This document shows, in pieces, positions 16,410 to 35,004 of a stretch of 50,488 bases of DNA. Made by a program: the position numbers and the translations under genes. The notes under the pieces are model-generated. The model saw only the letters and a list, made by a program, of their open reading frames with translations. It was not told the DNA's origin and searched no databases. This stretch comes from a virus: positions 1 to 50,488 of IMG/VR virus record IMGVR_UViG_3300023181_000038, one strand, 5' to 3'. The first letter of the stretch is position 1. Each line of letters begins with the position of its first letter.

Positions 16410-16919
16410 TTACAACAAAACATATCCGGCCTTATCAACCTTGCCAGCGTTGCGCAATTCAAGCAACTGACGCCATGTTTTACCGAATGCTTTTTCAAGA
16501 TGCGGGTAATCGCGGATTGTAGAAAATTTGCCGCCCCACTTCCACCCTGCATCCTCAAATACTTTTACTACTTCGCGCCAATCGGCTGCGCCGTCACCAT
16601 CGAAATCTTTGGCAATATCCCAGCTTACGGTTATCCCGTCAATAAGTAGGCAAAAGTCTATTGCGAGGCCATAGTTATGGAATGAAGATCCGGCATTTGC
16701 ATTGGTAACCTTCGCCCCCGGTTTCGTTCGCCCCTGCGCGTATAATGCGGCTTGCTCTGCGAATGTCCGGTAACCCTGCACTATTCTTATGGACGCGCGG
16801 CCTTTTAGCGCCTTAGACGCCTCTATATAAAGGCGCTTCGCTTCCTCTCTCAACTTTGGATGAAGCAACGCGATCCTATTGAGCGAAATAGCGTCTAATT
16901 CTGTTACGGTCTGTGCCAT
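16410..16919 (-). CDS. Endolysin, M15-family peptidase
   Basis: 169 aa. The zinc-site motif SSFHNYGLAIDF gives His81 and Asp88, with His140 in RDYPHLE as the third ligand. The VQGYRTFAEQAALYAQGR segment before it is characteristic of the L-Ala-D-Glu / VanY-like peptidases. It cleaves the peptide stem of peptidoglycan at lysis. There is no signal peptide, so it needs the holin. It is encoded about 3 kb from the membrane/lysis genes and has its own terminator. Confidence 0.92.
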   Translation of the reverse strand: MAQTVTELDAISLNRIALLHPKLREEAKRLYIEASKALKGRASIRIVQGYRTFAEQAALYAQGRTKPGAKVTNANAGSSFHNYGLAIDFCLLIDGITVSWDIAKDFDGDGAADWREVVKVFEDAGWKWGGKFSTIRDYPHLEKAFGKTWRQLLELRNAGKVDKAGYVLL

Positions 16920-16922
16920 GAT

Positions 16923-17310: not shown

Positions 17311-17381
17311 GTTGGGAAGGCTCAAAAGTAATCTACAAATACCGCAAGGTCACTTTCGGGGCAAAAAAAATAAATTAAGGC

Positions 17382-17411: not shown

Positions 17412-17417
17412 CTGTAT

Positions 17418-17534
17418 CAAATCCGAAGGACATGGGTGCAACTATGGCTTTTTCTTCGGGTTTAGGAATAGATGTTTGCCCTTAGTGGTATACCTTTCCC
17501 CTAAGCCCTCGCCGCACCCGAGGGCTTTTTCTTT
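17418..17534 (+). ncRNA. Candidate structured small RNA or attenuated leader
   Basis: Between the promoter above and the terminator lies a sequence with a 12-bp stem (17419-17430 with 17452-17463, two G-U pairs), a 5-bp stem CTTAG/CTAAG (17481-17485 with 17501-17505), and the terminator hairpin. The last two compete for 17503-17505. A 17-codon frame (MGATMAFSSGLGIDVCP, 17432-17485) overlaps the structure. It could be an independent RNA or a leader whose reading controls the genes downstream. It matches no family I know. Confidence 0.5.
17503..17534 (+). terminator. Intrinsic terminator
   Basis: AAGCCCTCG (17503-17511) pairs perfectly with CGAGGGCTT (17519-17527) across a 7-base loop and is followed by TTTCTTT. 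Strong intrinsic terminator for rightward transcription. Confidence 0.85.
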
Positions 17535-17571
17535 GCCCCTACTCTAACGAAATGATGCGCCATAGATACGC

Positions 17572-17712
17572 ATGGAGAGGAGTAAAAATCTGCGGGTGCT
17601 GCATTGTGCCAAAATGCTTTTAAATGTTGAAGATGGGTTTTCTATAGCTTGCTACCCGTCAACAGCCGAAACGAACGACGAAACTCATTGTACTGCCAGT
17701 CTGAAAAGGTGA
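17572..17712 (+). CDS. Possible small protein, 46 aa
   Basis: ATG at 17572, stop at 17710-17712. MERSKNLRVLHCAKMLLNVE, then a Thr- and Cys-containing tail. It sits right after the terminator, and its stop is the first arm of the hairpin 17708-17768. No family recognised and no clear promoter, so it is tentative. Confidence 0.35.
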   Translation: MERSKNLRVLHCAKMLLNVEDGFSIACYPSTAETNDETHCTASLKR

Positions 17713-17768
17713 GCGAAAATCTGCTAATTCTCTAAGGGGGTTGGGGGATTAGCTTGCTTTCGCTTACC
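17708..17768 (+). other. Long two-part hairpin before the rightward gene cluster
   Basis: Outer stem GGTGAGCGAAA (17708-17718) with TTTCGCTTACC (17758-17768), 11 bp with one G-U. After a 4x4 internal loop, an inner stem of GCTAAT/ATTAGC extends through G-U pairs to about 11 bp, with a G-rich apex (two G5 runs at 17736-17747). It stands 57 bases before the ATG at 17825. A regulatory leader or origin structure are both possible. Confidence 0.6.
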
Positions 17769-17824
17769 TACAACCTTCTAAAATCTATTGTTTGCCAATC
17801 ACAAATAATTTCGCGCACAATCAA

Positions 17825-18067
17825 ATGATACAAAGGCTTTTTCACAGGCTCTACCTCTATTTACTTCTTGTCCGCCTACGCATGTGCGCGAAGAACATTA
17901 AGAAATGGGATGCGCAAAAATGCGATTGGGGGCCGGCTGCGAGATATTTGATAGGCACATTTGTTTCGGAAGAAAAACACAAGGCACGGGGCATTGAGGC
18001 CAAAATAAAAGCAGGAATATTAAATATGCAGACTCCTAGATTTCTACTGAATAGACCAACATTTTAA
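17825..18067 (+). CDS. Hypothetical basic protein, 80 aa
   Basis: Starts at the ATG at 17825 (MIQRLFHRLYLYLLLVRLRMC); a TTG at 17792 would add 11 residues. The N-terminus is hydrophobic and basic, possibly membrane-associated. The rest is Lys-rich with KNIKKWDAQKCDWGPA. One base separates it from the next gene. Confidence 0.6.
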   Translation: MIQRLFHRLYLYLLLVRLRMCAKNIKKWDAQKCDWGPAARYLIGTFVSEEKHKARGIEAKIKAGILNMQTPRFLLNRPTF

Positions 18068-18068
18068 A

Positions 18069-18479
18069 ATGAACGCTCTACAGATACTAAAAGCAAAAGG
18101 CGCTGACATAGATCAAGAAGCGTTGCGAAAGGAATTCATGGATTACATCCCGCGAAGATTGGAGCGCGAAATGATGAAGCCTTGTGGCTGCTGCAAAGAG
18201 CAAGATCAAAGAGATATGATGCACGCGGATGCACTGGACATTATCGACTTCCACTACCGGCGCTACCTAAAAGGCACACTCCTTACTCTGCACAGAATCA
18301 CCCACGCCTTCCGCTTGCTGCCAAAAGAGCGATTCTTTGAAGGCATTACGATAATGGACGCGATATACTGCACCGCATTAGTTCATGAGTTCTATGAACT
18401 ATGCACAAGGCACCAATCAGCGAAGAAACAAATCCTGGCATTAGCCCTTAAACTTTACGCAATAAAAACGAAAGCATGA
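18069..18479 (+). CDS. Hypothetical protein with a Cys cluster, 136 aa
   Basis: Residues about 38-43 (KPCGCCKEQD) hold three Cys. The rest is helical, with several His in THAFRLL and HEFYELCTRH. No family recognised. ATGA overlap with the ASCH gene that follows. Confidence 0.65.
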   Translation: MNALQILKAKGADIDQEALRKEFMDYIPRRLEREMMKPCGCCKEQDQRDMMHADALDIIDFHYRRYLKGTLLTLHRITHAFRLLPKERFFEGITIMDAIYCTALVHEFYELCTRHQSAKKQILALALKLYAIKTKA

Positions 18480-18880
18480 AAACTCTACACCTGACTTTGA
18501 AAAAGAAGTGGTTCGATATGATTGAGTCCGGCGAAAAGCTGGAAGAGTACAGAGAGATTAAGCCGTATTGGGTTCAACGGCTCATGGGTTGCGGCGGGCC
18601 GAAGGAAAGGCCGGATGACCACAAACATGTTCCCGGAAACTTTTGTTTTGACATCATGGCCGGCCATCCGCCGGCGAATGTTGTCGCTTCATATATGATG
18701 ATGTTCAAAGAGTTTGACGCAATCATCTTTAAGAATGGGTATTCTAAGGAGGCGCGCTCGATGTACGTCACTTGCAACGGTATCGATATTAGCCGGGGCC
18801 GTGAAGAGTGGGGCGCAGAACCGGATAAGTACTATTTCAGATTCCGCGTGAGTAACCCTATTAAAATGCAACAACCCTAA
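18476..18880 (+). CDS. ASCH-domain protein
   Basis: 134 aa. The opening KTLHLTLKKKWFDMIESGEK followed by KLEEYREIKPYW is the ASCH domain signature. Family members bind or cut RNA or act on modified nucleosides. The middle has GHPPANVV and the C-terminus YFRFRVSNPI. In phages it is a common accessory gene, probably acting early on host RNA or nucleotides (inference). First codon overlaps the previous stop. Confidence 0.85.
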   Translation: MKTLHLTLKKKWFDMIESGEKLEEYREIKPYWVQRLMGCGGPKERPDDHKHVPGNFCFDIMAGHPPANVVASYMMMFKEFDAIIFKNGYSKEARSMYVTCNGIDISRGREEWGAEPDKYYFRFRVSNPIKMQQP

Positions 18881-18885
18881 CACCC

Positions 18886-19104
18886 ATGAACACACCTGAA
18901 ACAACAACAGTAGAGATAGTATGGCAAGGCATGAGTACTTGTGACATAAGTATAAACAACACCCTGTTTAATCGCTCTAACAACAAACACACCTCGGCAA
19001 GCTGGAAAGAACTTTCTGGTAGCGATTGGATAAATATTTACGACCTTACCCGAATAGGAGAGCTTGAATCTATTTTTCAACAGCATAAAAACAAAGAAGC
19101 ATGA
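18886..19104 (+). CDS. Hypothetical protein, 72 aa
   Basis: Polar: MNTPETTTVEIVWQGMSTCD, then SWKELSGSDWINIYDLTR. Predicted alpha/beta. Its stop overlaps the next ATG (ATGA). No family recognised. Confidence 0.65.
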   Translation: MNTPETTTVEIVWQGMSTCDISINNTLFNRSNNKHTSASWKELSGSDWINIYDLTRIGELESIFQQHKNKEA

Positions 19105-19451
19105 GCAACATTGAAATAATGGAGAAACGATACCGCGCATTTGACGCGATAGTGTCACCGCAGGTACCCGTTAACCGTTCTGTATGACTAGAAGGCGGCA
19201 TTCTAACACAAGAAGAAATAAGTGCAGAGAAATTCGCAAAAGTCGGGGCATGGATAAAGTCAGAACACGAAGCCCTGCACGGCATGGATGATTACAATAA
19301 GGTAGGACACCTTAAAAATATTATGGTCATTACCCCATGCTGCCGGCACATCCCATCAGTAAATGCGGCGCGGGAAGTTGTGGTTGCAGAGTATGACGCG
19401 ATCAAAAAACGCCTAGATAAGAAATACAAAAAGGATGGGCGATACAATTGA
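19101..19451 (+). pseudogene. Hypothetical gene interrupted by an in-frame TGA
   Basis: From the ATG at 19101 (ATGA overlap with the gene before) the frame reads MSNIEIMEKRYRAFDAIVSP... up to a TGA at 19185-19187. It then stays open to a second TGA at 19449-19451, 116 codons in all. The downstream part is protein-like (EGGILTQEEISAEKFAKVG, ITPCCRHIP). One base change (TGG to TGA) would explain it. Possibilities are a recent nonsense mutation, a sequencing error, or readthrough. It is the last gene of the rightward cluster. Confidence 0.7.
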
Positions 19452-19462
19452 TGGATAGAATA

Positions 19463-19492
19463 AAAATGCCGGGAGATTAACCCCGGCATTTT
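19463..19492. terminator. Bidirectional intrinsic terminator between convergent genes
   Basis: AATGCCGGG (19465-19473) and CCCGGCATT (19482-19490) pair perfectly around an 8-base loop, with A-T pairs and T-runs outside on both strands. It serves the rightward cluster ending at 19451 and the leftward late genes ending at 19493. Confidence 0.9.
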
Positions 19493-19852
19493 CTATGGTA
19501 TCATGTTCTTCCTTCGCAATCGCCTCTCCTGCCGAAAATACTTCACGTACAATACAGTAACAAGCAGGGCAGCTAAGTAGTTCGCGATATTAAACCGAGT
19601 AGGCACAGCCAATACGATAAACAGGACATTAATGATGGACAGGATAAGCAAGTATTCAGACGCAAGACGGGCCTGAGTGCGGCATCCGAGATTATTTATC
19701 GCCCACGCATAAAACACAGTTGCTAGAGCCTCCGTAATTCGGTTAATCGTGAGCCATGCTTCTTCGTCAATAAACCAACGAACATTACGCCCTGCGCCGT
19801 GAATAATAATCCCGGCGATAATGATGTAGGAGGCGTTACGGGCATTTACCAT
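19493..19852 (-). CDS. Multi-spanning membrane protein, last gene of the late operon
   Basis: 119 aa with hydrophobic segments at about 7-20 (ASYIIIAGIIIHGAG), 33-52, 66-84 (YLLILSIINVLFIVLAV) and 89-103, and a basic tail (FRQERRLRRKN). Its place beside holin-like genes suggests a role in lysis or superinfection exclusion. No family recognised. Confidence 0.65.
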   Translation of the reverse strand: MVNARNASYIIIAGIIIHGAGRNVRWFIDEEAWLTINRITEALATVFYAWAINNLGCRTQARLASEYLLILSIINVLFIVLAVPTRFNIANYLAALLVTVLYVKYFRQERRLRRKNMIP

Positions 19853-20193
19853 TTGATAGGCGGTGCAGTAGGGCCAACAATGCCGGCGCTACCATAAGTA
19901 GTCGTTGTGCCTACCCTTACGAATGTGGCGCTGAAATCGCCGTCATCAACCGCCGGAGTATAGACCAGGAACCGACCGCCCTCTGAGCTTGTTTCAAGGC
20001 TGTAGCCTGCCTCATTGTTGCCTACATAGTCAGCGGTAAGGCCAACAAGTGTGCCGTTAAATCCAAATGCAGAGATGGTATCTGCGTCGTCGTGCAATTG
20101 CCAATAGATGTTATCTGTCATTGAACGAAAATAAACCGTTTTGCCAGTTATTTTCTCCAATAGCCACGCCAAAAACCTAATTATATTTTTCAT
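19846..20193 (-). CDS. Hypothetical protein, possibly virion-associated, 115 aa
   Basis: A basic-hydrophobic N-terminus (MKNIIRFLAWLLEKITG) leads to a Thr/Gly-rich beta region (GTTTTYGSAGIVGPTAPP) like those of phage tail or adsorption proteins. It overlaps the next gene. Role not clear. Confidence 0.6.
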   Translation of the reverse strand: MKNIIRFLAWLLEKITGKTVYFRSMTDNIYWQLHDDADTISAFGFNGTLVGLTADYVGNNEAGYSLETSSEGGRFLVYTPAVDDGDFSATFVRVGTTTTYGSAGIVGPTAPPIKW

Positions 20194-20196
20194 TTA

Positions 20197-20496
20197 TTAT
20201 TTGCTATCAAGTGTTGAGGTGCTATCGTATTGTGCGGCTTTCCATCGTAGAACGCTGTCGCTAACATATAGGCTACGAAGGTCACTCGCAGAGTATCCCC
20301 AATTCGCAAGGCTAACGGTGAGCTTAGCCATGCTAGCAGCATTCTGTTTAGCATCTTCCAGCCTCCCCTCTTCACACTTCGCACAAGCATCCTGCTGTTT
20401 TGTGAGCATGAGGTAAAAAACAAATGCCATAACGTATCCGGCATCTCTCCCAATGAGCTTTCGCCATCCCGGCGGGGTGCTTGTATCTGTGGACAT
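20197..20496 (-). CDS. Single-pass membrane protein, candidate inner-membrane spanin
   Basis: 99 aa. Short cytoplasmic N-terminus with GWRKLIGRDAGY, one hydrophobic helix at about 21-32 (VMAFVFYLMLT), then a charged helical tail (KQQDACAKCEEGRLEDAKQN). An N-terminal anchor with a helical periplasmic tail is what an i-spanin would look like. The small lipoprotein at 21544-21720 is the possible partner. A nearly coextensive frame at 20190-20501 is judged a shadow. Confidence 0.55.
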   Translation of the reverse strand: MSTDTSTPPGWRKLIGRDAGYVMAFVFYLMLTKQQDACAKCEEGRLEDAKQNAASMAKLTVSLANWGYSASDLRSLYVSDSVLRWKAAQYDSTSTLDSK

Positions 20497-20555
20497 TGCA
20501 TAAATATAGTCTGTAAATACTGCGAATATAATATCTGTTTATCGTTACTTAGATA

Positions 20556-22202: not shown

Positions 22203-22973
22203 TTACTGCAATACTTCACGCCCCGAATTGTAGGTGTAGACGGGAGCGCCCAAAGTATTAATGCTGCGAAGTTTCACATAATAACCTGCTGGCACGAAGC
22301 ATGACAATTGACCTGCCTGTGTGTTCGTGTTTGTAATAGCCACAGCAAGGCCCACTACATTGCCGTTTGCCATCCTACCCACTTCAACCCAATCGCTTGC
22401 AGTCGCGCTATTTGTTGGTGCTATCTCAAGGACTATCGTACCTATAGCGCCGCCGCCAAGTGTTGATGTGGTCACTATAGTGGCGGAATAGCTAACAAGC
22501 GCGTCCCTTGTCGCGCTTACCTGGAATCCCGTAGCGCCTGTACTTGTAGTAATAGATCGCGTTACAGAAGTCATTATGCGAGGTGTTACCATGAAAGTAT
22601 CGCCCACCCGCGTTAGCCCATTGCCAGCCTGCAAATACGGCGAAGTGCTTTGCGCCCAACAGCTATTGCCGTTTTTTATTCGATAGCTGCCCGAATCAAG
22701 GCCGGGGCAATTACCTACCCAATTTAAGAAAACAGCGCGGTTATTAGCCAGCAGGACGCCAACAGGGGTTGCTACCTCTGTTGGGTCCGGTGACCATACT
22801 TTAAAAGAATCAATGCTCATCCCGACGAACAATTGCGCCCTGCCTCTATTTATACTATCCTTTGTTATCAAAGCTCCATTTCTAGTTAGCACAACAACAC
22901 CGGATGCTTGGCAGAATCCATTCCAATCGATAACGAGAAGTGTTAACAGGCATATCAGACGAATATCTTTCAT
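22203..22973 (-). CDS. Secreted beta-rich protein of the tail-fibre cassette
   Basis: 256 aa with an N-terminal signal peptide (MKDIRLICLLTLLVIDWNG, then FCQASG). The likely cut is before or after the Gln at about 22. The mature part starts TRNGALITKDSINRG and is Thr/Ser/Val-rich beta, with Cys pairs in GNCPGLDSG and NSCWAQ that could form disulphides in the periplasm. No family recognised. Last of five consecutive genes with signal peptides. Confidence 0.7.
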   Translation of the reverse strand: MKDIRLICLLTLLVIDWNGFCQASGVVVLTRNGALITKDSINRGRAQLFVGMSIDSFKVWSPDPTEVATPVGVLLANNRAVFLNWVGNCPGLDSGSYRIKNGNSCWAQSTSPYLQAGNGLTRVGDTFMVTPRIMTSVTRSITTSTGATGFQVSATRDALVSYSATIVTTSTLGGGAIGTIVLEIAPTNSATASDWVEVGRMANGNVVGLAVAITNTNTQAGQLSCFVPAGYYVKLRSINTLGAPVYTYNSGREVLQ

Positions 22974-23002
22974 CGTTCAGTCTTTTATCGGGGTTAAAAT
23001 AA

Positions 23003-23212
23003 TTATGGGGTTACAGGGCAAGCGCCAATTTGATCGTTGTGCATGGTGTGTTGGAATAGCTGCGATACGGGAATCACAAGCGTCTGATATTGCGCAGGAC
23101 GGCGCGGTCCTACGATGCGATGGCAAACGGTAACTGTTGGCTCGTCTGCGGTAGCGGCAACGGTTGCGAGAAGTACAGCGCAAGCTGCTAGAATCATTGG
23201 TTTCTTTTTCAT
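23003..23212 (-). CDS. Small secreted CH...H..H.D..G.C domain protein
   Basis: 69 aa. Signal peptide MKKKPMILAACAVLLATVAATA, then TVTVCHRIVG. The mature chain has Cys30-His31, His55, His58, Asp60 and Cys65, matching the short VTICH...H..H.D..G.C repeat common in bacterial extracellular proteins. It may bind metal or form one disulphide. Finding it as a stand-alone secreted protein in a phage tail locus is unusual. Overlapping frames are rejected. Confidence 0.65.
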   Translation of the reverse strand: MKKKPMILAACAVLLATVAATADEPTVTVCHRIVGPRRPAQYQTLVIPVSQLFQHTMHNDQIGACPVTP

Positions 23213-23222
23213 GGTGTTTTAT

Positions 23223-24089
23223 TTAGTGCCCTACGGCGGTGTTAAAAATGGATATAGCCGCTGCCCTGTTTGTGGCCTCTGTTGCATTCAACCCTTGACC
23301 AAAGGATGCGAAGGTTATTACCCCGGTAAAATACCCGCCTGCTGTTCCGCCGCTATTAAGCGCGCCTATGTAGAATGGTTGAAATGTTGTCCCTAACTGA
23401 CTGTTTAGCGCGCTTGAATTAAAAACCACTCCGTCACGGTACAACGCGGTAACGGCTGCGCCCGTCCTTACGGCGAGCCAATCACCAACAGATGTTGTAC
23501 TTGTACCTGCAGCAGTGTTTGTTAAACCGTTGCCGTGTACGCTATATGTCGCTGTATTTGTGGCGCTTCTTGGCAATATCAATGTCCGGCGCGATGGGCT
23601 TTCAAAAACACCTAGCAGATAGAAATTGCCTCCGCTCGCAGACGTTGGCGTTGTTACTCCTACATGGAAATTATCTCTCTGCGCATTGGGTATTAAGTAA
23701 GCTGGATTAGCGTATTCAGCCCCGCTCAACACAAGCCCTGTTGAGTTGTGCGTAGGACCGCCTGTAAACGTCAATTTATGAGTCATCGTATCCCGCAGAT
23801 TGTATGCCTGCGTTCCAGCCGTGCCGCCCAAAAATGGATAAATGGCATAACACTTTGCCCATATACCGGCAGACTTCAACGAGATAACGAGATTCGTTAC
23901 TGCTGTTGCAAACGTTGGGTTTGAATTGTTGATGGCGAACAGATACTTATTCGCGTCCGTGTCAGATGGCGGCGCGGGCGGTGGCCCATACGCTTGATTA
24001 TTCGCGTGGAATACGGCAATAGGAGACTGTCCCGCAACCGGGATAGCCAAGCACAGACACAGGATCAGCTTAATTGTAATTCTTGCCAT
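23223..24089 (-). CDS. LamG/ConA-like tail protein with a signal peptide
   Basis: 288 aa from the ATG at 24089 (MARITIKLILCLCLAIPVAG, then QSP, predicted cleavage before Gln). The mature chain has KCYAIYPFLGGTAGTQAYNL and, later, SVGDWLAVRT and GVVFNSSALN, the phage form of a concanavalin/LamG jelly-roll that binds glycans. The upstream extension is rejected because it runs 97 bases into the previous gene, whereas this start overlaps it by only 20. Probable receptor-binding component. Confidence 0.7.
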   Translation of the reverse strand: MARITIKLILCLCLAIPVAGQSPIAVFHANNQAYGPPPAPPSDTDANKYLFAINNSNPTFATAVTNLVISLKSAGIWAKCYAIYPFLGGTAGTQAYNLRDTMTHKLTFTGGPTHNSTGLVLSGAEYANPAYLIPNAQRDNFHVGVTTPTSASGGNFYLLGVFESPSRRTLILPRSATNTATYSVHGNGLTNTAAGTSTTSVGDWLAVRTGAAVTALYRDGVVFNSSALNSQLGTTFQPFYIGALNSGGTAGGYFTGVITFASFGQGLNATEATNRAAAISIFNTAVGH

Positions 24090-25437
24090 AGTTCCAGAGG
24101 TACGATGTGCCATTGTATACAAATGAAATAATATCCACGGCACCGGCAGTGGTTGTAAGCGTGATAGCACCCGCGCCGCCACCAATGACCTTTGACCCTG
24201 CGGGTAGTGTCAATGTACGAGAACCCGTGCCATCCTGCGTAACGATAAGCGTGCCATAATCGCCCGCTGTCGCGCCTGATATGGCAAGCGTTCTATTCCC
24301 GCCGAGCGTCACCATTGCATTGTATCCGCTGCCGAATGTCCAAGTGATTGTAGCACCATCGGTAAGCGTCTGAAATGCCTTTGAGGGGATGGTTACTGTA
24401 TTAGACAGAACGCCGCTGCCATCAATCGCCAACCCTGTGCCAACTTTAACACCCCCCAATACGGAAGCGGATGCAGTAGGTAGGACATAGCCACTCCCTC
24501 CCGGTCCAAATCCGTTCCCGTCAACCTCAACAACAATGATGTCATTAAGCGTTACGCCGGATGTAAATGTTACTGTTGTCGATGTGGATGAATAAGTAGG
24601 ACGGAAAACATGCAAGCCATTACGGTATACGTGCAGCTTAGACGTATCAGACGGTATTGTGCCCGCTGTGACGTTAAAAAGCGTCTGCCCTGATGTTGCC
24701 ACGTATTGTTGTCGAAACCCGGGAGAATCGGCAAGATTCGCAATACCCAGGTTTGTTCTTGCTCCTGCTGCCGTTGTTGCGCCTGTGCCGCCATTCGCCA
24801 CGGCAAGCGTACCTCCTAAAGTGAGCGTTGTGGAGCCCGTCAGGGTGAGCCCTGTCGAACCACCTGAGCCGCCTGTTACTGTGCCGGTGTTTGACGTGTA
24901 ACCTGATGGGTTAGATGCAAGATAGTAGGTGTTGTTGTCGTATGTGATAACTCCGCTGTTAGCTTTGACGAATCCCGGCCCCGTAAGTTGCGCCTGCTTA
25001 CTCGCGATCAGCGCTGAATCACCCGAAGAAAGACCGCCGGCATACTGAGGGATGTTCAATGTATTCCCTACGAGCGTAGCAGCGCCGGAATTACCGGTTG
25101 TAGTGAGGGAGAGTGTGCCCTGCTTGCCGGCCAATGCCGTATTGATCCGGCTGCGGGTTGTATCAAGGCTGTACTTCGTGGCATAGATCGTGGAATCAGT
25201 CACGCCGGAGATTGTCAGCCAAACCGACCCGTTCCACAGCTGAATAGCGTTCGATTCATACCGGATAGAACCGGCCTGCTTTGGACCATACGCGCCTCCG
25301 TAGTCAAATTCTGTGGCAGATACTGCCGGGAGCTTCATCCGGGCAATTACTTCTAGCGCGTGATACCGGTATGGGATCGAAACCTGCGCATCAACAAAAA
25401 GGGGCAGTAAGAACAGTATTGCGATTAATCGTTTCAT
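24070..25437 (-). CDS. Tail fibre protein with a Sec signal peptide
   Basis: 455 aa. Signal peptide MKRLIAILFLLPLFVDA, then QVS at the predicted cut. The chain has phage-fibre features: the NGGTGATTAAGARTNLG motif near 220, VLGGVKVGTGLAIDGSGVLS near 328, and Gly/Thr-rich beta repeats. The C-terminal GSRTLTLPAGSKV / GTSYLWNYGK region looks like a trimeric tip. A fibre that should be cytoplasmic carries an export signal, as do its neighbours. Confidence 0.8.
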   Translation of the reverse strand: MKRLIAILFLLPLFVDAQVSIPYRYHALEVIARMKLPAVSATEFDYGGAYGPKQAGSIRYESNAIQLWNGSVWLTISGVTDSTIYATKYSLDTTRSRINTALAGKQGTLSLTTTGNSGAATLVGNTLNIPQYAGGLSSGDSALIASKQAQLTGPGFVKANSGVITYDNNTYYLASNPSGYTSNTGTVTGGSGGSTGLTLTGSTTLTLGGTLAVANGGTGATTAAGARTNLGIANLADSPGFRQQYVATSGQTLFNVTAGTIPSDTSKLHVYRNGLHVFRPTYSSTSTTVTFTSGVTLNDIIVVEVDGNGFGPGGSGYVLPTASASVLGGVKVGTGLAIDGSGVLSNTVTIPSKAFQTLTDGATITWTFGSGYNAMVTLGGNRTLAISGATAGDYGTLIVTQDGTGSRTLTLPAGSKVIGGGAGAITLTTTAGAVDIISFVYNGTSYLWNYGKNYN

Positions 25438-27368
25438 TATTTTTTCTCTATTCTTATTTCGTAGGTGAACTGCACAGGGTAGTCAGGAAAGAACCGGATG
25501 GCGTCTGCCGAATTGTGGTAAAACTTGGGAACCAGGAACTCCCCTTTTTTGGCATACAGCGTTATCCCGGTCAGTGTGTAAGAGCCCATCCGTTCCGTGC
25601 TGCCAAACTTTACCTGAGAGCGAACAATTTCTTTGTTGATGTATGCGAGATCGTTGACAGGGTTTCTTAATCGGCCCTGTACCGCGATCCCTACGATTCT
25701 TTCGCTCCCTGTGATGTCGTCCCCACAGGTGCCTTTGATCGTCACTTCGTATGTTCCATCCTCCGGTATCTCAATAAACCCGACTGAATCCTTTGCGACA
25801 AACCCGCCGCCGTCGGATTGCATAATGTGCCCATCGCGTTGATAATGGAAAGGGTCAGAATTGAAATTTATCTGAACAATAGCCGAACCGCTAAACGCTG
25901 CGTAGTTCTGATCACTCAATTTGTTGACGCGGATGATTGTACCATCCTGTGCCGTCGCGCCATCGTAAAGGATCGCGTATTTATTCCCGCTACCAGCCTG
26001 CACAACTGACGCATAGCCCCAATCGTAAGGGTTGTACCCGCGCGCTGTATTATCCGCTTCCGGTTTGAAGTCGTAGACCCTCGGGTTAGCTGCAAGTTTG
26101 GAGATGTCACGGATAACGCCGGTATCGCAGACGAAAGTCATTAGCTTGCCCGCTGAATTGCCACGATAACCAATAGTTATTTCTACCTTATCGCCGTAGT
26201 AAGCCACCTCAGAGGGATAGGCATAAGTTGTTGTTGATAGCCTAGCCGAAAAGTTGCCGGTGTAAGTAATGGTAGACCCGCCGTTATCGCTCCGATAGAC
26301 GCGCGATATAGACCCTGCTGCGGGGCGAATCACATAGATAATAGAACCGTTTGGAGCTTGCGCAAAACCCATTTCATTCATCAAAACGCCCGTGTCTATG
26401 TAGGACTTAACGGAGAATGTCTTCCCGCTGTCTAGGCTTTTTAGCAGGACAACCTTGTTTTTTATCGAGTAAGCGCCAACGTGGTATTCCCCGTTTTGCA
26501 TCAATTTGCCTTTCCCAAAGATGACAAGTGTATCACCGGGGAAAGCCGGCTGAGCTTGCGCCGGGGCATTAACCCATGTAGCGCCGGAATCATCCGAATA
26601 CCGTACTGCGAATGTGTTCGCGCCTATTTTGTTATACGGCACTATAATCCTACCTCCCGGTCCAATCCCTGAACTGTATCCTGCTACGTCCATCGTGTTG
26701 ATTACCGTATCCGGCACACTCCATTTGCCATTGTAGACCGTGTGCATTACATAAGCTGTACTGTTATGGTTCGGTGCCTCTGTGTACAGTACGTGATGCT
26801 TTGCGCCCAATGTACTTGCAACAGGGAATCCGCGATAACTCACAATGGATGGTGTGTTTATTTCGCCTTCTGTAATGTCAGGTGACGGCACGTCGAACAA
26901 AGAAACCGCAGGGCCAACTTTCAAAACCCCTGAATCGTCTGTTATTACCGTCCTAATCCCATTGCCTGAAATCCCTATATCTCTAATGTTGCCTACTACA
27001 TGCAGCGCATGGGTAGGAGATGAAGTATTGATACCAACACGCCCGTTAGAATCCCACATTGAACTATTGCCCAAAACGGTAGGGGCGGTAAATTTTGAGG
27101 CGTAGTTAGCCGTACCGGTGCCTGTGAGAGTGCCAGAACCGCCACCCGAACTTTTTGTGCGAAGCGTAAGAAGGCCATTCCCGTCGATTCCCAATACCTT
27201 ATTGCTATCAGAATTAGCAAGGTTTGTTAGATAAACCTTATTGCCAATACGGAGTTTGCCTAAAATATAATTAGAATCATTAACCCCCGATCCGCCTACC
27301 CGCCCAGGGTTCTGCGCGGAAGATAAAAGGGCAAATGAAACTATAAGTAGTGTTATTAGAATTCTCAT
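25437..27368 (-). CDS. Sialidase-like beta-propeller tail spike with a signal peptide
   Basis: 643 aa. Signal peptide MRILITLLIVSFALLSSA, then QNP. Residues about 70-150 hold fibre-like motifs (GRVGINTSSPTHALHVVG). From about 190 to 460 a propeller carries three Asp-box repeats: SDDSGATW near 257, SLDSGKTF near 311 and SDNGGSTI near 359. The end is a beta-sandwich (YEIRIEKK). A glycan-binding or cleaving depolymerase is likely; catalytic residues cannot be fixed by eye. Confidence 0.75.
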   Translation of the reverse strand: MRILITLLIVSFALLSSAQNPGRVGGSGVNDSNYILGKLRIGNKVYLTNLANSDSNKVLGIDGNGLLTLRTKSSGGGSGTLTGTGTANYASKFTAPTVLGNSSMWDSNGRVGINTSSPTHALHVVGNIRDIGISGNGIRTVITDDSGVLKVGPAVSLFDVPSPDITEGEINTPSIVSYRGFPVASTLGAKHHVLYTEAPNHNSTAYVMHTVYNGKWSVPDTVINTMDVAGYSSGIGPGGRIIVPYNKIGANTFAVRYSDDSGATWVNAPAQAQPAFPGDTLVIFGKGKLMQNGEYHVGAYSIKNKVVLLKSLDSGKTFSVKSYIDTGVLMNEMGFAQAPNGSIIYVIRPAAGSISRVYRSDNGGSTITYTGNFSARLSTTTYAYPSEVAYYGDKVEITIGYRGNSAGKLMTFVCDTGVIRDISKLAANPRVYDFKPEADNTARGYNPYDWGYASVVQAGSGNKYAILYDGATAQDGTIIRVNKLSDQNYAAFSGSAIVQINFNSDPFHYQRDGHIMQSDGGGFVAKDSVGFIEIPEDGTYEVTIKGTCGDDITGSERIVGIAVQGRLRNPVNDLAYINKEIVRSQVKFGSTERMGSYTLTGITLYAKKGEFLVPKFYHNSADAIRFFPDYPVQFTYEIRIEKK

Positions 27369-27910
27369 GCGGGTATTTGTTGAACCAAAACGTAAATGTT
27401 TACATTATCATACTCTAGCAATTCCTGCGATGCGACAGGCTCTAGGAATTGAGACCCTATAAACACAGCCAATACTTGCGCATCGCCAATGGTTGCCTTT
27501 AGCGCGTCTACAGTTACCGGCCCGATTACAGGTATAGGAGTTGATTGCGAATATATCTCATCCGGCGTCCCCACCTGATAGCACCGCATTTCTGATAGGT
27601 AAATAGCCATTATTTCGATTGATGAATATTCTTCAATGTTGTAGTAGGTAATGCCACCACCAATGATGGCCGAAAATGTGCCCTGTAGCCCGTTAATTAC
27701 TTTAAATACGTCATTTAGGTAAGTAACTAACGCTGTCTTATTGGCAAATATAATCTCTATCGGGTAAGGAGTGCCGTTGATAAGCAACCCGACAACTTGT
27801 ATGTTATTAAATGGCAGCCTGTCCGAATCAATCACAAGCAATGTAGCCGCCTCTTTCCTCATCAGAGAAACGCAGCCGCCGCATCGCACTATAAATTGAT
27901 AGCCTATCAT
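27365..27910 (-). CDS. Hypothetical tail-region protein, 181 aa
   Basis: Mixed alpha/beta with MIGYQFIVRCGGCVSLMRKE at the start, LPFNNIQVVGLLING and EEYSSIEIMAIYLSEM. No signal peptide is obvious. It overlaps the spike gene by four bases and follows the 588-aa protein. Possibly an adaptor between baseplate and spike (inference). Confidence 0.65.
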   Translation of the reverse strand: MIGYQFIVRCGGCVSLMRKEAATLLVIDSDRLPFNNIQVVGLLINGTPYPIEIIFANKTALVTYLNDVFKVINGLQGTFSAIIGGGITYYNIEEYSSIEIMAIYLSEMRCYQVGTPDEIYSQSTPIPVIGPVTVDALKATIGDAQVLAVFIGSQFLEPVASQELLEYDNVNIYVLVQQIPA

Positions 27911-27913: not shown

Positions 27914-29680
27914 TTAGTCTGTGTACACGCTCCACCCTGCGGCCTGTAGGTCAAAAATAGCCGGTGCGGAAGAGATTGTTGGAGGTGCTGCCGGCGTCTG
28001 CCCTGAAAGGTCTATCGAACCGCCACCGGAATAGTTTGTGTTATCCGCAAGGCTAATCAGTATGTTGTCAACCTGTGTAGAGCTGAGTGTATTTGTAGAA
28101 AGATCGATGTTTACAAGGTTTGCGAAAGCGTTAGCGGGAGTGGTTACAAAGTATGGTCCCGTACCAATGTTATCTAACCCTGATACCTCCACTTTGAAAG
28201 ACGAAAGGCTATTCTTTGCCGGCAGGATGTTAGCCAGATCAAAGAGAGGGATATTGTGCGCAATGATTTGAAAGTAAATCATCGATACAGGCAGGTCACC
28301 GTCAAAAGCTGTCAGCACCGGCACGTCAATAGGCGCGATAAAATACAACCGGTTGATTGTGTTTTTATGGTAGAAACGTATGCCCGAATTCCCACCCGGA
28401 AGAGTAAAGCCATTGTTTGCTATACCTGATGCCGGCAGATATTGCCCTGCTAAGTTCGATCCAACTATGATGTGATCGCCCGCGTATGTGTACCCGAACG
28501 CGCCACCGCCTGTAATGGTCGTATCAAAGTACCCTGCCATTGTCACGCCCGTTGCAGACGAATAGCTTTCATCTGGCCCGTTTGAGTAGAAATAAAAGCC
28601 GCCGGATGTAGTAAATACCCCATCAAGGCCAATCGCATTAAGGCTTGCCAAATAAGCGTTTTCAGCAGTTGAATCGAGTATCTCAACAACATTAACACCT
28701 AACGGAGATAGAGGAATAGTTGAAGCCGCATCAGACATTGACAGGTCAGCCAATGCGTAGGGGAATGTTGCGGGACGCTCAAATAACTGCAAATCACCTG
28801 TGCCGTATGTCGTGGTATCTATTGCCCGTTTCTCCTGCAAGGCTACCGTGCCGGTTGATAACGGGGTAGGCGTTCTTTCTGTGCGGTCAAGCGTGGAGTT
28901 TTCCGCCCTGACAAAATTCTTTTGATCAATATTGAGCGTAGGGCATACTAATATTTCCTCAATTATGTCCAGCGCCCAAGCGGGCAGCCCCATTTCTGAA
29001 TGTCGGTACAGCTTCGCGCCTACAAATAGCTCACACTCCCGTATCCGGTCCGAATGAAGTAATTGCGGGTCTTTAATCTGATTTATGAATCTGCTATCGT
29101 CGTAAATGCTGCGATAGTTCCTGAATTCCCCTTCCGCCCTGAATTGAAAATTAGGTTTTAGCACCCACCACACGTTATGCGGGTCCTCTGCCGTGCCTTT
29201 GTAGCGATAGAGCAACGTTCCCGGCCAATCCGCCGCTACGTCCATTGGCTCGCTGATATAACGGCGTGTTTCGCCATCTCTTACCGTTGTGACTAAAACA
29301 CAGTATCGCCCCGGCGGGTAGGTAGCATTATCGAGCGGTATGCGGTATTGGTAGGTATCCAACTGCACACCGTTTTGTGTGTTGCCTGCTGCTTGTAGCG
29401 AATTATTTAAAGCAATTGTAGCTATGGTAACCGCATTACAGTCTATAACCGTGCAGACAATAGTCCCGCCTAACAGGTCGTTCGTATTGACCTGGAATGT
29501 GATCGTATCCCCATTGCGCCACTTTTGATAGTACTGTGATTTGCGATTCCACCACAGGTAGGAATCCTGATACCAATCTTTGCGTAGATGCTTTGTGTAA
29601 AATGCCGCGTTCGTCACCGCATCCATTAATACTAATGGAATCGGGTTCATGGCCGGTGTCTGAAAGATATGTGAGGCCAT
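27914..29680 (-). CDS. Baseplate/tail protein with a leucine-rich C-terminal domain
   Basis: 588 aa. The first 200 residues have short strands and many Trp/Tyr (KDWYQDSYLWWNRKSQYYQKW), a pattern of phage tail-tip proteins. Residues about 490-588 are LRR-like: LVNIDLSTNTLSSTQVDNIL, GGSIDLSGQTPAAPP, then DLQAAGWSV. This is a C-terminal repeat seen on phage and surface proteins that is likely to contact a receptor. No export signal. Confidence 0.7.
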   Translation of the reverse strand: MASHIFQTPAMNPIPLVLMDAVTNAAFYTKHLRKDWYQDSYLWWNRKSQYYQKWRNGDTITFQVNTNDLLGGTIVCTVIDCNAVTIATIALNNSLQAAGNTQNGVQLDTYQYRIPLDNATYPPGRYCVLVTTVRDGETRRYISEPMDVAADWPGTLLYRYKGTAEDPHNVWWVLKPNFQFRAEGEFRNYRSIYDDSRFINQIKDPQLLHSDRIRECELFVGAKLYRHSEMGLPAWALDIIEEILVCPTLNIDQKNFVRAENSTLDRTERTPTPLSTGTVALQEKRAIDTTTYGTGDLQLFERPATFPYALADLSMSDAASTIPLSPLGVNVVEILDSTAENAYLASLNAIGLDGVFTTSGGFYFYSNGPDESYSSATGVTMAGYFDTTITGGGAFGYTYAGDHIIVGSNLAGQYLPASGIANNGFTLPGGNSGIRFYHKNTINRLYFIAPIDVPVLTAFDGDLPVSMIYFQIIAHNIPLFDLANILPAKNSLSSFKVEVSGLDNIGTGPYFVTTPANAFANLVNIDLSTNTLSSTQVDNILISLADNTNYSGGGSIDLSGQTPAAPPTISSAPAIFDLQAAGWSVYTD

Positions 29681-31800
29681 TAGTTAATAAGGTCTGCGGG
29701 GTCTACGTCAGGATGACAGAGCAAAGTAAAATCATATTGTTGAGGGAACGCCGGTTTAGTGCCCACCTCCATTGCAAAGCCTTTCAATAATCTCCCTTTC
29801 CAATAGAACGAAAAGTAACCGTGAGGCATGGCGTCCATTAATGTAATCATATTGGCGCTAGGCACGCAGGTAAAGCGCAACAATATTGGCAGGAAGTAAG
29901 GGTTAGTCAAAAGGCTGTTGGGTATGTCTGCCTTTTCTGATACCGTACCCGCACCGATGTTGCTTACAAGGTCTACATTCTTATCCCCGGTCTTAAAGAT
30001 AATGTCAGAGTTGCGAAGGTGCATGATAGCCGCCTCTAGCCGTGCGCCTCTAAGTTGCTTCCTGTGCGGCGTAAGCGCGATATTATAGACACTGCCGGGG
30101 AATGGCACACCGGAAGTATTGAGGAACGTGTTGGGCCTGTAAATAGTCCAGGCACCGTTTACTTGCGTATTGCTAATGTCGATCAGGATTGTATCATTAT
30201 CGCTTCCGCTGTCGGTTGTGGTTTTATTAGCTAGATTCCTGCGTATAAACTCAATGCCTATGGAATCCGCGCGGAATGAACTAAGTCTGTCAGCCTCTTC
30301 CTGATTCCGCGTAAAGCCATGTGTCAACGTCTGCCCCTGATTGTATTCAAATCGCCCATTTAGCTGATCGTAATCACGCGCCTGATACCCGATCTGAACT
30401 TTGTTCACAAAAACATCATTGTATGGCGGAGTTTTCAGGTCGGTTACTTCACCCAAATTAGCGATCTCCGTATTTTGGAATACTTCTGCCAACGGCACCA
30501 AAGCCAATTCCCCTCCCGGATTAAGTGTGTTTGTCACCTCAATAAGGCCCATACTCCATTGCGTTGAAGCATCCTGAAATACATCAGCAATTGTTGTTTT
30601 GATCTTCGCGTCTGGCAGACCGCGCACCGCATCACCGCATGTCACTGCCGTATTGTATGGACGGCTATCCCAAAAGGCATTGCGAGAAAAGCCCGAATTG
30701 GTCAGCAGTGTAGACGTGCCGGCAACAGATTGTCCGATAGCCTGACCGACAATCTTCGCCCAAAGCTGCCAGTAACGATATGCCTTAATTGTTGTTTCGG
30801 GGTATAATGAACTAAATGATATTTTGATTGATGGGGTAGAATTAACGGGTATGCCGTAATTCCAATCAGCGCCGGGGTTCGGTGTTGTCATGCTGGCCCT
30901 GAAATAGAGCTTATCCCCCGGCTGCATCGTAACGCTAAAAGAACCGGATGGGCTAAAAGTCAATCCGTCGAAATTGAGATAGTTATTCTCGCTGATTATA
31001 TCGTTAATAAATCCCGTGACGCCCGCCGAATCCTTAACAAAGAAACCTACACGATACACTGCCGCCAATGGTGAGGCAATGGCAGTGCCTGTAATCTCAA
31101 AGTCGTAATCGACAGTGATAATAGTTGGAGTTGATGCCTGAAAGAAATGTTTGCCTGCAAATTGCAAAGAGGCAACATCTGAATAATCAACATTTTGTAC
31201 ATCCTGATCGTCCCCCGTTTCCGTAGCAACTAGGGTTATCTTAGGGACATTGGCGATGTTTATATTATCCCCCAAAGGATTATTGCTCATAATGAACGAT
31301 GCGCTATTCAATAGCTGCACACCATCCATTTTTACCGACAGGCAATCGGCATCCCCTATCGTTATTTCTTGAGGGACACGTTCATTTGCTTTCAATAGCG
31401 CCTGCACATTTGATTCCAATATCTGCACTTGCGGCAAATCGGGATCGCCGTCGAACTTGCTAAAGTCTATCGCGCCTGAGTAGTAAGGCACATACAGCCA
31501 TTGCCCCGGTTCACGTATTTCTATCGAAAGAATGGCATCGCCTTCAATCCCTTGTGTAAGGTAGACATGGCATACAATCCTTGCCGCGTCCGTGTGCATT
31601 TGGTAAGGCGTGGTGAGCGTTCTGCCAATGCCCCAATAGGTAGGGTGCCGGAGCCATTTAATCTCTGTCTGATCCCATCCGATAGGCGCATCAATATATC
31701 GTGGGTTACTATCGGTAGCAACTTGCCCAATACTATTTACATAGTAGTATCCGCCCTGTGGCGTCATTATGCTGAATCGGAACTTACCAGGGGTAGCCAT
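29680..31800 (-). CDS. Large tail protein after the tape measure (distal tail / baseplate hub)
   Basis: 706 aa and beta-rich throughout. Starts MATPGKFRFSIMTPQGGYYYV. Position directly after the tape measure, size and absence of coiled coil fit the distal-tail or hub protein of siphoviruses. No catalytic motif is recognised. One-base overlap with the next gene. Confidence 0.65.
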   Translation of the reverse strand: MATPGKFRFSIMTPQGGYYYVNSIGQVATDSNPRYIDAPIGWDQTEIKWLRHPTYWGIGRTLTTPYQMHTDAARIVCHVYLTQGIEGDAILSIEIREPGQWLYVPYYSGAIDFSKFDGDPDLPQVQILESNVQALLKANERVPQEITIGDADCLSVKMDGVQLLNSASFIMSNNPLGDNINIANVPKITLVATETGDDQDVQNVDYSDVASLQFAGKHFFQASTPTIITVDYDFEITGTAIASPLAAVYRVGFFVKDSAGVTGFINDIISENNYLNFDGLTFSPSGSFSVTMQPGDKLYFRASMTTPNPGADWNYGIPVNSTPSIKISFSSLYPETTIKAYRYWQLWAKIVGQAIGQSVAGTSTLLTNSGFSRNAFWDSRPYNTAVTCGDAVRGLPDAKIKTTIADVFQDASTQWSMGLIEVTNTLNPGGELALVPLAEVFQNTEIANLGEVTDLKTPPYNDVFVNKVQIGYQARDYDQLNGRFEYNQGQTLTHGFTRNQEEADRLSSFRADSIGIEFIRRNLANKTTTDSGSDNDTILIDISNTQVNGAWTIYRPNTFLNTSGVPFPGSVYNIALTPHRKQLRGARLEAAIMHLRNSDIIFKTGDKNVDLVSNIGAGTVSEKADIPNSLLTNPYFLPILLRFTCVPSANMITLMDAMPHGYFSFYWKGRLLKGFAMEVGTKPAFPQQYDFTLLCHPDVDPADLIN

Positions 31801-31803: not shown

Positions 31804-34800
31804 TTATGCCCAATTCTGTTTTATGTAAGCGCGCATGCTTGCGTCAACCTGAATGTTTACTTTGCTGCCCTTAACTGCACGTTCAATTCTTGCTCCCCAT
31901 TTATCGAATGATTCGTTATTCCCATTTGCTGCTTTCTGCGTTTGAATATTACGCACCAATTGAGGGGCAAGCATACCGTAAGCCATAGCATTAAGCCGCT
32001 CTGACGGGATAACCGTAGTGCCTGCGCGAAGATCTTTAATCTGATCTCCTTTTACGGCGTATGGATCCCGCCCCGGTTCGATGATGTACTCCAATCCGCT
32101 TTTGTTATCCCCTACGCGGGCCAATCCACCTTTGTGCTTCGCCTTCCCATCAATACCCGCACCCTCTGCGTAAGCTGGCAGTGGTGTGGCAAGTACGGTA
32201 GCAAGTTGAATGGCACCAACGCCGGCGCTCAATGCAGCTAATGGGATACCGGCAACCGGTCCAAACTGTGAGAACGCCTTAATTACGGCCTGTGCGGTCA
32301 ATGCGATGATTTCACCAATGGCAATAGCCCTTTCGTATTTCGCCTGATCCCTGCGCAATTGCTTTTCTCTCGCTGCAATGTCTTCACGTTGTGCCGCTGC
32401 CTTTGCTTCCGCTACCGCTATCCGCGCCTGCTTTTCTTCCGCGAAAAATGCCGCCTTCTCTTCGTCTGATATGTTTTGAAGATTGTACTTCTCCAATAGC
32501 TTTTGGCGCTCTTCCTGCGACATTATCGACGCCTGAATAGCACGCACCTCTTTATCCTTATTCTTATCGATTTGCACCTCTTCATTTTGAAGGCTTGCAA
32601 ACCGTGTTTCAAATTGAGCGGATACTACTGTCTTAAAAAGGGTGTACAGGGCTTTCATTGCCTCTGCCCGCTTGTCATCTATTTTTTTACTAAGCTCCGC
32701 CGCTTTCTCGTTGTCCTCAATTATTTGGTCGTTCTTCTCCTTATTCAGCGCTACCTCAATATCGTGATACTTCTTTTGCAGGGCCGTGGTATCATAGCCC
32801 ATCCTGCCAAGCTCAAAAAGCTCAGTCCCTATACGATTTTTCAGGGCTTTCAGTTCTTCTAAGTCGTACTTGTCGTTTATATCCTTTAGCTGCTTCCGGT
32901 ATTTCTCTTCCGATATAAGGCCGTTCTTAAAACGCGCTGACAATGCGATACGCTCATTCTGTTCGTCAATACTTCTTGACGCACTTATGGCGCTTAAGTC
33001 ACCCTCGTATAGCTTTTGACGCTCTAATAGATAGTTCCGAGTTATGCCTATTATCTGCGCGTTAGTGTCCATCTCCGCGTTAATTCGCAGATTCAATTCA
33101 GGGAATCCCTTTTTGTCCTTTGCTGTCCTTTCCTTTGGCGTTGCAGGGTCATTACCAAACAGCGTTTGTCCCGCAAGTGCAGCGGATTTTTGCGCGTCGG
33201 TGAGATATTTCGATTGCTCTTTTTGAGCCTCTTTTAACGCTGCTGTAATGTCGTTAAAACGCTTCTTTAATTCTGTGACTTTGGTTTGGGCAAAAAACTG
33301 ATCCAACCCCCGACTTTCTGCATCACCGGTCTTACCCGCCTTATCTCGCGCCTCTCTTGCTTTGGTGAGATCTTCCAAAGCCTCCGTTTGTGCCGTAGTG
33401 AGGTCGTAAACAGTTTCACTTGCGGCTGCAAATTTCTTTTCCGCCGCCTGTGCCGCCGCCCTGTTAAGAAGCGCCTGAGTGGCTTCGTTTATCGCTGCCG
33501 TGGCTTTGCCTTGTAGAATTATTTCTTTGTCAAGATTGCCGAAGTAGTCGGGATATGTTTCTTGCAGTTCTTTTATCGCCCTTGCCCTATTACCTGTGGA
33601 TTGCTCATTGTCCGCTGCGAGTGTGGTAAGAATATTCAATCTTGCAATTTCCTGTTGCGCTGCAACGCGGGACGATGATTCTATGTTGTCAATACTTTCT
33701 TTGTACTTTTTATTGGCAGCTTCGGCTTTCTTTGATGCTGCACTTGCGCCTGTGAACACTCCTACAATCTTATCGCCAAATGTTGTGGCAACAATAATAA
33801 TGCCCAATAAAAGGGTGTTCATTGAAAACAATGTATTGATTAGCCGTTTGCCCACGCTGGAATTTGCCGCCGTAGCTGCTGTATTTTCAGTAACAGCAAC
33901 ATTCAGGCGGTTCATCGCAACAGTTGATTCCGTTGCTGCTACAGCCGCCGCGCCGTTTGCCCTTACCTGACCGCCAATCGCTGCCGCATCATCCACATTA
34001 GCCCCTGCGTTTAGCAATATTGCCTCGGTGTTAACTGCCGCCGCTTCTGCTGCCTCAATTGAAGTTGCCGATGCCGCAATTTGCTCTGCAATTTGCTCTT
34101 TTATGGCAACTGCTTGTTCCGTTGTGGCAGTGATGTTATCTACAATCGAATCAACCTGATCCGCAAGCGCATTGCCGGTGGCTTGAGATAGCTTTATGGC
34201 TTCGGCTTGCAGTGCCTTTTGCACCTCCAATTGCGTATTGAGCGCCGCAGTGTTGGCGGCAAACTCTTTCACCTTTAGGGATGCCTTGCTCAACTCATCA
34301 AAAAATTGCGGCAACTGATTAGACCATGAAAGAAACAATTGTTGTGCAGATTGTACGGATGGCACCTCTCGCAATAGCCCCTGCAACGAAGCGCCGAGCC
34401 CATCATAAGCGGATTTGTAGTTACCAACATTCCGTTGATTCTGTCCAACCGCCGCTTCAATAGTCCCTAGCTTGTCGCTTAGTTCTTTTGCATTTTTAAT
34501 GGCGGCAATAGTCCGGGCATCACCTTCGCCAAGTGTGAGATAAAATTCCTTAGCCTGTTTTTCAGCCAGCCCGTATTCTGCACGAAGTTTACCGTAAGCC
34601 GTTTGTAGGCTATTCGCGCCCTTAGCCTCCCGTGCTGCCGCTGCTGTAGCCTTATTGCTGCGGTCAATCTTCCTGTCAGCCTCTTTTGATGTAATTGCAT
34701 CTGCTGCCGCTCGCTCTTTTGCTGCTTTTGCCGCAAACAAATCAGCCTTCCCTGCTTCTGTGGCCGTTTTGCTAAGGTCAAGGTTGGCTTTTATCAACTT

Positions 34801-35004
34801 CGCCGCTGCCGCATCTGCCCTTGCCTGCGCACTCAGGAAAGCAGTAATTCCTTTTGCATCACCCAGCGCATTAGCCGCATCACGTGCCGCCTCTGCATAT
34901 TTAGCAATAGCGGGTATGCCATCCTGCACGGCCTTAGTCGCACGATTGACGTTATCAATCGCGGAACTAGGGATAATCTCTACTATATCTGCAAAATCGG
35001 CCAT
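31804..35004 (-). CDS. Tape measure protein
   Basis: 1066 aa, the longest product here. Ala-rich helices dominate (residues 1-330). Two hydrophobic segments are clear: LLLGIIIVATTFGDKIVGVF near 400 and a Gly/Ala-rich one near 945. Coiled-coil regions with KELQETYPDYFG, EERIALSARFK and similar lie between. The C-terminal AEGAGIDGKAKHKGGLARVGD and EYIIEPGRDPYAV match the ends of many phage tape measures. It sets tail length and may form the DNA channel. Confidence 0.9.
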   Translation of the reverse strand: MADFADIVEIIPSSAIDNVNRATKAVQDGIPAIAKYAEAARDAANALGDAKGITAFLSAQARADAAAAKLIKANLDLSKTATEAGKADLFAAKAAKERAAADAITSKEADRKIDRSNKATAAAAREAKGANSLQTAYGKLRAEYGLAEKQAKEFYLTLGEGDARTIAAIKNAKELSDKLGTIEAAVGQNQRNVGNYKSAYDGLGASLQGLLREVPSVQSAQQLFLSWSNQLPQFFDELSKASLKVKEFAANTAALNTQLEVQKALQAEAIKLSQATGNALADQVDSIVDNITATTEQAVAIKEQIAEQIAASATSIEAAEAAAVNTEAILLNAGANVDDAAAIGGQVRANGAAAVAATESTVAMNRLNVAVTENTAATAANSSVGKRLINTLFSMNTLLLGIIIVATTFGDKIVGVFTGASAASKKAEAANKKYKESIDNIESSSRVAAQQEIARLNILTTLAADNEQSTGNRARAIKELQETYPDYFGNLDKEIILQGKATAAINEATQALLNRAAAQAAEKKFAAASETVYDLTTAQTEALEDLTKAREARDKAGKTGDAESRGLDQFFAQTKVTELKKRFNDITAALKEAQKEQSKYLTDAQKSAALAGQTLFGNDPATPKERTAKDKKGFPELNLRINAEMDTNAQIIGITRNYLLERQKLYEGDLSAISASRSIDEQNERIALSARFKNGLISEEKYRKQLKDINDKYDLEELKALKNRIGTELFELGRMGYDTTALQKKYHDIEVALNKEKNDQIIEDNEKAAELSKKIDDKRAEAMKALYTLFKTVVSAQFETRFASLQNEEVQIDKNKDKEVRAIQASIMSQEERQKLLEKYNLQNISDEEKAAFFAEEKQARIAVAEAKAAAQREDIAAREKQLRRDQAKYERAIAIGEIIALTAQAVIKAFSQFGPVAGIPLAALSAGVGAIQLATVLATPLPAYAEGAGIDGKAKHKGGLARVGDNKSGLEYIIEPGRDPYAVKGDQIKDLRAGTTVIPSERLNAMAYGMLAPQLVRNIQTQKAANGNNESFDKWGARIERAVKGSKVNIQVDASMRAYIKQNWA

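Follow-up and report, generated by a model that had tools for sequence, protein, structure and literature searches.

Tail assembly of double-stranded DNA (dsDNA) phages is taught as a wholly cytoplasmic process; the coat proteins of filamentous phages, also part of the virion, are synthesised with a Sec signal peptide. Here we describe a block of five consecutive minus-strand genes at the fibre position of a tailed phage, all of which open with a predicted Sec signal peptide. The block lies in a 50,488-base IMG/VR virus record (IMGVR_UViG_3300023181_000038), analysed over its whole length and hereafter called the window. In the earlier literature, such signals receive no more than passing mention. 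Bartlau et al. (2021) reported that lyase proteins of Cellulophaga phages Nekkels and Ingeline carry signal peptides and that such enzymes usually occur on tails (PMC8776804), while a 2023 study of Porphyromonas gingivalis phages described signal peptides following the Q-rule (Gln directly behind the cleavage site) on five phage genes of unknown function, for which effects at the outer membrane were suggested (PMC10367356). Elsewhere, the absence of signal peptides has been taken as support for the phage origin of variable proteins (PMC6199706). The original prediction on this DNA held that no such phage system had been described; this needs narrowing, in that two of these papers mention the signal peptides (PMC8776804 and PMC10367356) and neither links them to an export step in virion assembly. 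In the open-access literature, we found no paper proposing Sec-exported virion fibres. The data below suggest that the fibres are exported from the cytoplasm and only then join the virus, which departs from the usual view of how tailed phages are built.

Signal peptides were called with a rule-based predictor written for this analysis, not with SignalP. Each N-terminus has one or two basic residues, then a hydrophobic core, then a cleavage site with small residues: MRILITLLIVSFALLSSA/QN in the product of 27368, MKRLIAILFLLPLFVDA/QV in that of 25437, MARITIKLILCLCLAIPVAG/QS in 24089, MKKKPMILAACAVLLATVAATA/DE in 23212 and MKDIRLICLLTLLVIDWNGFC/QA in 22973, the weakest of the five. The block thus has the positive n-region, the hydrophobic core and the small residues at −3 and −1 that define Sec/signal peptidase I substrates, less clearly so in one of five (22973). 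The latter has two candidate sites, CQA/S, top-scoring in the predictor, and GFC/Q, which is the Q-rule site. The three Gln residues at +1 originally pointed out (SSA/Q, VDA/Q and VAG/Q) stand, and with GFC/Q the count may rise to four of the five proteins with Gln at a permitted +1, the pattern of the Bacteroidetes Q-rule. When the first 40 residues of each protein were shuffled 2,000 times, the observed score was reached by 0.15% of the shuffles for each of 27368, 25437 and 24089, by 0% for 23212 and by 2.75% for 22973. The preceding genes 27910, 29680, 31800 and 35004 and the following genes 22193 and 21931 score nil. The predicted run of five Sec signal peptides is borne out. The genes of the block are as follows.

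25437..27368, minus strand: fibre/spike gene 1, 643 amino acids; predicted signal peptide 27368-27315, SSA/Q; mature part with three Asp-box motifs
24070..25437, minus strand: fibre gene 2, 455 amino acids; predicted signal peptide 25437-25387, VDA/Q; a GSIRYESNAIQLWNGSVW motif and a NGGTGATT motif
23223..24089, minus strand: fibre gene 3, 288 amino acids; predicted signal peptide 24089-24030, VAG/Q; matches phrog_17104 (E 3e-7)
23003..23212, minus strand: small secreted protein, 69 amino acids; predicted signal peptide 23212-23147, ATA/D
22203..22973, minus strand: fibre gene 5, 256 amino acids; weaker predicted signal peptide 22973-22911, GFC/Q or CQA/S; matches phrog_31472 (E 2e-29)

Gene 27368 begins inside its predecessor, with a 4-base overlap read as ATGA (27365-27368), and the starts of 25437 and 24089 overlap the genes before them by 1 and 20 bases, respectively; those of 23212 and 22973 follow after gaps of 10 and 29 bases. 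Because of these three overlaps, translation from a downstream start is unlikely, and wrong start codons were rejected on the same ground; the gene starts being well placed, the signal regions therefore lie inside the genes. The predictor is rule-based and some 3% of control open reading frames (ORFs) pass it, so hydrophobic N-termini could in principle arise by chance or from misplaced starts. Set against the overlapping starts, five hits in a row, the shuffle result and recurrence in unrelated phages, this explanation earns almost no credence from us. Two further routes were dropped: none of the five N-termini has a lipobox with Cys at +1, as in signal peptidase II lipoproteins, and Pfam gave no match to a C-terminal sorting domain of the type IX secretion system on the proteins scanned. 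The lack of such a sorting domain fits a stop in the periplasm.

The arrangement is not peculiar to the window. Looking at other phages, as the original prediction had suggested, we found two to five consecutive signal-peptide genes where the fibres are encoded in phage Pan5, four Bacteroidota chromosomal loci and several Cellulophaga phages. Like the window, the Cellulophaga phages of the Assiduviridae and Pachyviridae (phi10:1, phi19:1, phi18:3, phi46:3, phi19:3, phi13:2 and Nekkels) carry three to five signal-peptide genes there, consecutive with few exceptions and almost always with a permitted +1 Gln; their fibres have no detectable homology to the window's, and the GenBank notes consulted are silent on signal peptides. 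There are three such genes in Nekkels and phi18:3, four in phi19:1 and five in phi10:1 and phi46:3; phi19:3 has four in a row and one further on, and phi13:2 has three, with a short gene lacking a signal peptide in between. Cellulophaga phage Ingeline (Duneviridae) similarly has four consecutive signal-peptide genes in its fibre cassette, non-homologous to those of the window. On Bacteroidota chromosomes, locus L058 combines tail genes and a pair of signal-peptide genes with genes for membrane proteins and possibly a lysis enzyme, and three further loci from the same genus have two to four signal-peptide genes in a row; in these four loci with phage-like tail genes, most signal peptides have Gln at +1.

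In phage Pan5 (ON968456), tail genes homologous to those of the window occur in the same order and are followed by two signal-peptide fibre genes. Tail genes and signal-peptide fibre genes are thus common to both phages, whereas the fibre sequences differ (no clear BLASTP match in the pairs compared) and the listed host of Pan5 is a cyanobacterium, Pseudanabaena. Yet the signal peptides of Pan5 obey the Q-rule of Bacteroidota, and its tail genes are similar to the window phage's; Pan5 may in truth infect a Bacteroidota bacterium that accompanied the cyanobacterium in culture. The Pan5 coordinates of interest are 4360-4761, 16457-19378 and 19380-20501; the first of these, annotated as a capsid cement protein, has a signal peptide at its start too (ITQA/QAPK), which would widen export to a head part.

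Gln occupies a permitted +1 in 21 of the 23 distinct N-termini in the set, against a mean of 71% published for Bacteroidetes (PMC5837995). This bears on the possibility that the hydrophobic N-terminus stays uncleaved and anchors the protein in the membrane or the tail. Small permitted residues followed by Gln in all but two N-termini, and the fact that unrelated N-termini have only those properties in common, make such an anchor very improbable. Common descent of all the fibres was also tried as the reason for the shared signal peptides, and rejected: apart from the C-terminal domain of the 22973 product, BLASTP gave no match between the window fibres and the other signal-peptide proteins.

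Within two fibre families, the first alignment block, which covers the signal peptide and the first mature stretch, is 86-87% identical between phages, and identity reaches 96% further into one of the N-terminal modules; the C-terminal blocks of the same families are mostly 16-47% identical. Nekkels gp53 and phi10:1 gp092, for their part, have a C-terminal region that is 76% identical behind unrelated N-termini, both of them signal peptides followed by Gln. Judged from these alignments, the signal peptide and a short mature adaptor form the conserved module behind which C-terminal domains are swapped. Retention of export through module exchange argues for selection.

Membership of the virion is documented in public data on relatives. 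In GenBank, eleven signal-peptide proteins, phi10:1 gp091-094, phi19:1 gp101-104 and phi18:3 gp085-087, are marked “annotation based on experimental MS/MS proteomics analysis” (MS/MS, tandem mass spectrometry), and for other genes of these three records the MS/MS note is phrased as part of the structural virion. Of the remaining proteins detected by MS/MS in phi10:1 and phi19:1, those examined (portal, capsid and further tail proteins) have no signal peptide. These notes are the strongest evidence against a pure decoy reading, in which the proteins would be secreted to act off the virion, either as polysaccharide lyases that loosen capsule or matrix or as receptor-binding decoys against sticking to debris and superinfection. 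Such a role would suit the lyase, beta-helix or lectin-like domains or annotations in several relatives, the resemblance of the 23212 product to a small secreted protein, and a signal-peptide gene that directly follows the lysis genes in Pseudomonas phage AF; an outer-membrane role is, moreover, what PMC10367356 favoured for Q-rule phage proteins. Besides the structural record of the 11 proteins, it has against it the conserved N-terminus with swapped C-termini, which is what a virion-attachment module predicts, and the occurrence of the same domains in fibres lacking a signal peptide. On balance, we think an off-virion function unlikely. A mixed arrangement, with fibres on the virion and a secreted excess that masks receptors on the lysing cell and on debris, agrees with both the MS/MS notes and export; the surface binding that it supposes in the producing cell is hypothetical, Pfam found no outer-membrane secretion signal in the proteins scanned, and it seems more doubtful still.

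Of the two outcomes originally envisaged, exported fibres and secreted decoys or enzymes, the relatives therefore favour the former through the 11 MS/MS-recorded proteins. We consider it fairly probable that the products of the fibre cassette are exported before assembly, cleaved, kept in the periplasm away from the tails and joined to them when the cell lyses. In the late phase of infection, the fibre proteins would each be made with an N-terminal Sec signal peptide and cross the inner membrane, where the host signal peptidase I would cut them, usually leaving a Gln; this N-terminal Gln should then be cyclised by the host to pyroglutamate, a modification known for Bacteroidetes (PMC5837995). 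The fibres would fold in the periplasm, and the cytoplasm would be the site where heads and tails still without fibres are put together. Lysis by holin, endolysin and spanin would then bring the periplasmic fibre pool together with the cytoplasmic particles; the fibres would dock to the tail tip by means of the short conserved stretch behind the cleavage site, and the variable C-terminal domains would attach to surface glycans or degrade them. There is good support for export and for virion membership; we infer the cleavage of virion copies, periplasmic folding, docking at lysis as the place of joining, and that the window proteins behave like their Cellulophaga counterparts.

Several observations weigh against this proposal of export followed by docking. 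In many Bacteroidota phages the fibre cassette lacks signal peptides: BS-TP2, RAP44, Arctus_1, JQ, a Porphyromonas prophage, contig L010 and the crAss-like phage phi4:1; signal peptides are likewise missing from the fibre genes of three human-gut contigs. The proteins with MS/MS evidence are counterparts by layout, not by homology of fibre sequence, and do not belong to the window phage itself; the GenBank notes give no mature N-termini, so that uncleaved or co-purified protein is possible; and phi10:1 gp095 has a signal peptide and no MS/MS note, as would also suit a protein acting off the virion. As for phi4:1, its proteins at the shared-domain region are recorded as structural by MS/MS, and the domain is common to the signal-peptide protein Nekkels gp53; therefore, exported and non-exported fibre routes both seem to exist among phages of one host genus.

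The window holds the minus-strand late region of a tailed phage, in which terminase, portal, capsid, a likely tape measure and two tail proteins are followed by the fibre block; this position, after the tape measure and distal tail genes, is that of fibre and spike genes in Caudoviricetes. The neighbouring genes and a likely lysis gene are listed here.

27365..27910, minus strand: tail-region gene, 181 amino acids; no signal peptide; upstream boundary of the block
27914..29680, minus strand: tail protein, 588 amino acids; no signal peptide; homologous to phage Pan5 gene 16
29680..31800, minus strand: tail/virion structural protein, 706 amino acids; no signal peptide; phrog_15220
31804..35004, minus strand: likely tape-measure protein, 1066 amino acids; no signal peptide
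16410..16919, minus strand: likely endolysin, Peptidase_M15_4; required by the proposed docking at lysis

The best terminase matches are to Bacteroides and Riemerella phages, and the capsid matches to phages of Cellulophaga, of Porphyromonas and of the human gut. A search of genomes with a terminase alignment matched almost only Bacteroidota; judging by these matches, the host is very likely a Bacteroidota bacterium. Scans of viral contigs with the single 706-residue tail protein and the 643-residue fibre, or with an alignment of the next tail protein, gave no relative, and a two-row tail-protein alignment gave one, L010. A first genome scan had no match, and a phrog_18512 search of 396 Bacteroidota genomes matched only a locus already known. 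Elsewhere in the window, a plus-strand AhpC/TSA peroxiredoxin gene (43013-43561; Pfam AhpC-TSA, E 5e-29) lies between the capsid and portal genes, and a YopX-family gene occupies 15398-15805; YopX genes are annotated in Nekkels and phi10:1 too.

As to the identities of the block's products, the 27368, 24089 and 23212 products match no named fibre family, and a sequence search of solved structures gave nothing firm; alignment-free structure prediction failed, with a mean pLDDT (predicted local distance difference test) of 35 for the 22973 product and 31 for that of 24089. The Asp-box propeller claimed for the 27368 product has its three motifs (residues 258, 311 and 360) and a Pfam BNR_2 match below cut-off. 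In the 25437 product, the supposed NGGTGATT repeat proved to be a single motif, which falls inside a tail-fibre PHROG match; its matches there are weak (phrog_5481, tail fiber, E 0.0015; phrog_19976, E 0.0031). The 24089 product, a member of a phage protein family of unknown function (phrog_17104), is possibly LamG-like, a fold that no profile supports. The mature part of the 23212 product has a Cys-His...His..His-Asn-Asp..Gly-Ala-Cys motif, which no second ORF among the loci compared matches.

The C-terminal domain of the 22973 product (residues 129-256) is common to signal-peptide and fibre-like proteins of other phages. A search with these last 128 residues found 70 viral contigs; among ORFs of at least 150 residues, a signal peptide is present in 41 of 66 that bear the domain and in 10 of 290 others at the same loci (Fisher P ~5e-27, which is overstated, related contigs not being independent). 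Many members have a conserved D-[IL]-x3-Q-R-N segment at the mature start, and the family architecture runs from signal peptide and D-[IL]-x3-Q-R-N start through a collagen-like or variable middle to the shared C-terminal domain. Many of the contigs look proteobacterial, and the family includes Pseudomonas phages AF, AH02 and Orisa03; in Erwinia phage phiEa2809, the same domain stands at the end of a long fibre-like protein, which is encoded inside a tail-fibre cluster and lacks a signal peptide. The family suggests a comparable, putative export route in phages of Proteobacteria.

More broadly, there could be a widespread tailed-phage route in which receptor-binding fibres are exported by Sec, capped with pyroglutamate in the periplasm and docked only when the cell breaks, leaving virions non-adhesive inside the cell, a generalisation that we would as readily believe as doubt. 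If true, final virion assembly takes place at lysis in a common group of Bacteroidota phages, periplasmic folding is open to the fibres and their glycan-binding or glycan-cutting domains are separated from the cytoplasm, and fibres produced in laboratory strains with the signal peptide left on may differ from the natural form. Where a fibre gene encodes a Gln-ending signal peptide, this could also help to link viral contigs to Bacteroidota hosts.

Compared with the window, the phrog_31472 family, to which AF, AH02, Orisa03 and environmental relatives belong, has the 22973 C-terminal domain in common and a signal peptide in most members, but the predicted cleavage would mostly leave Ala or Gly instead of Gln, and many members have another mature start. 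Filamentous phages share with the window a signal peptide on a virion protein; unlike the window phage, they have neither a tail nor a dsDNA capsid, and they assemble at the membrane during extrusion, without lysis.

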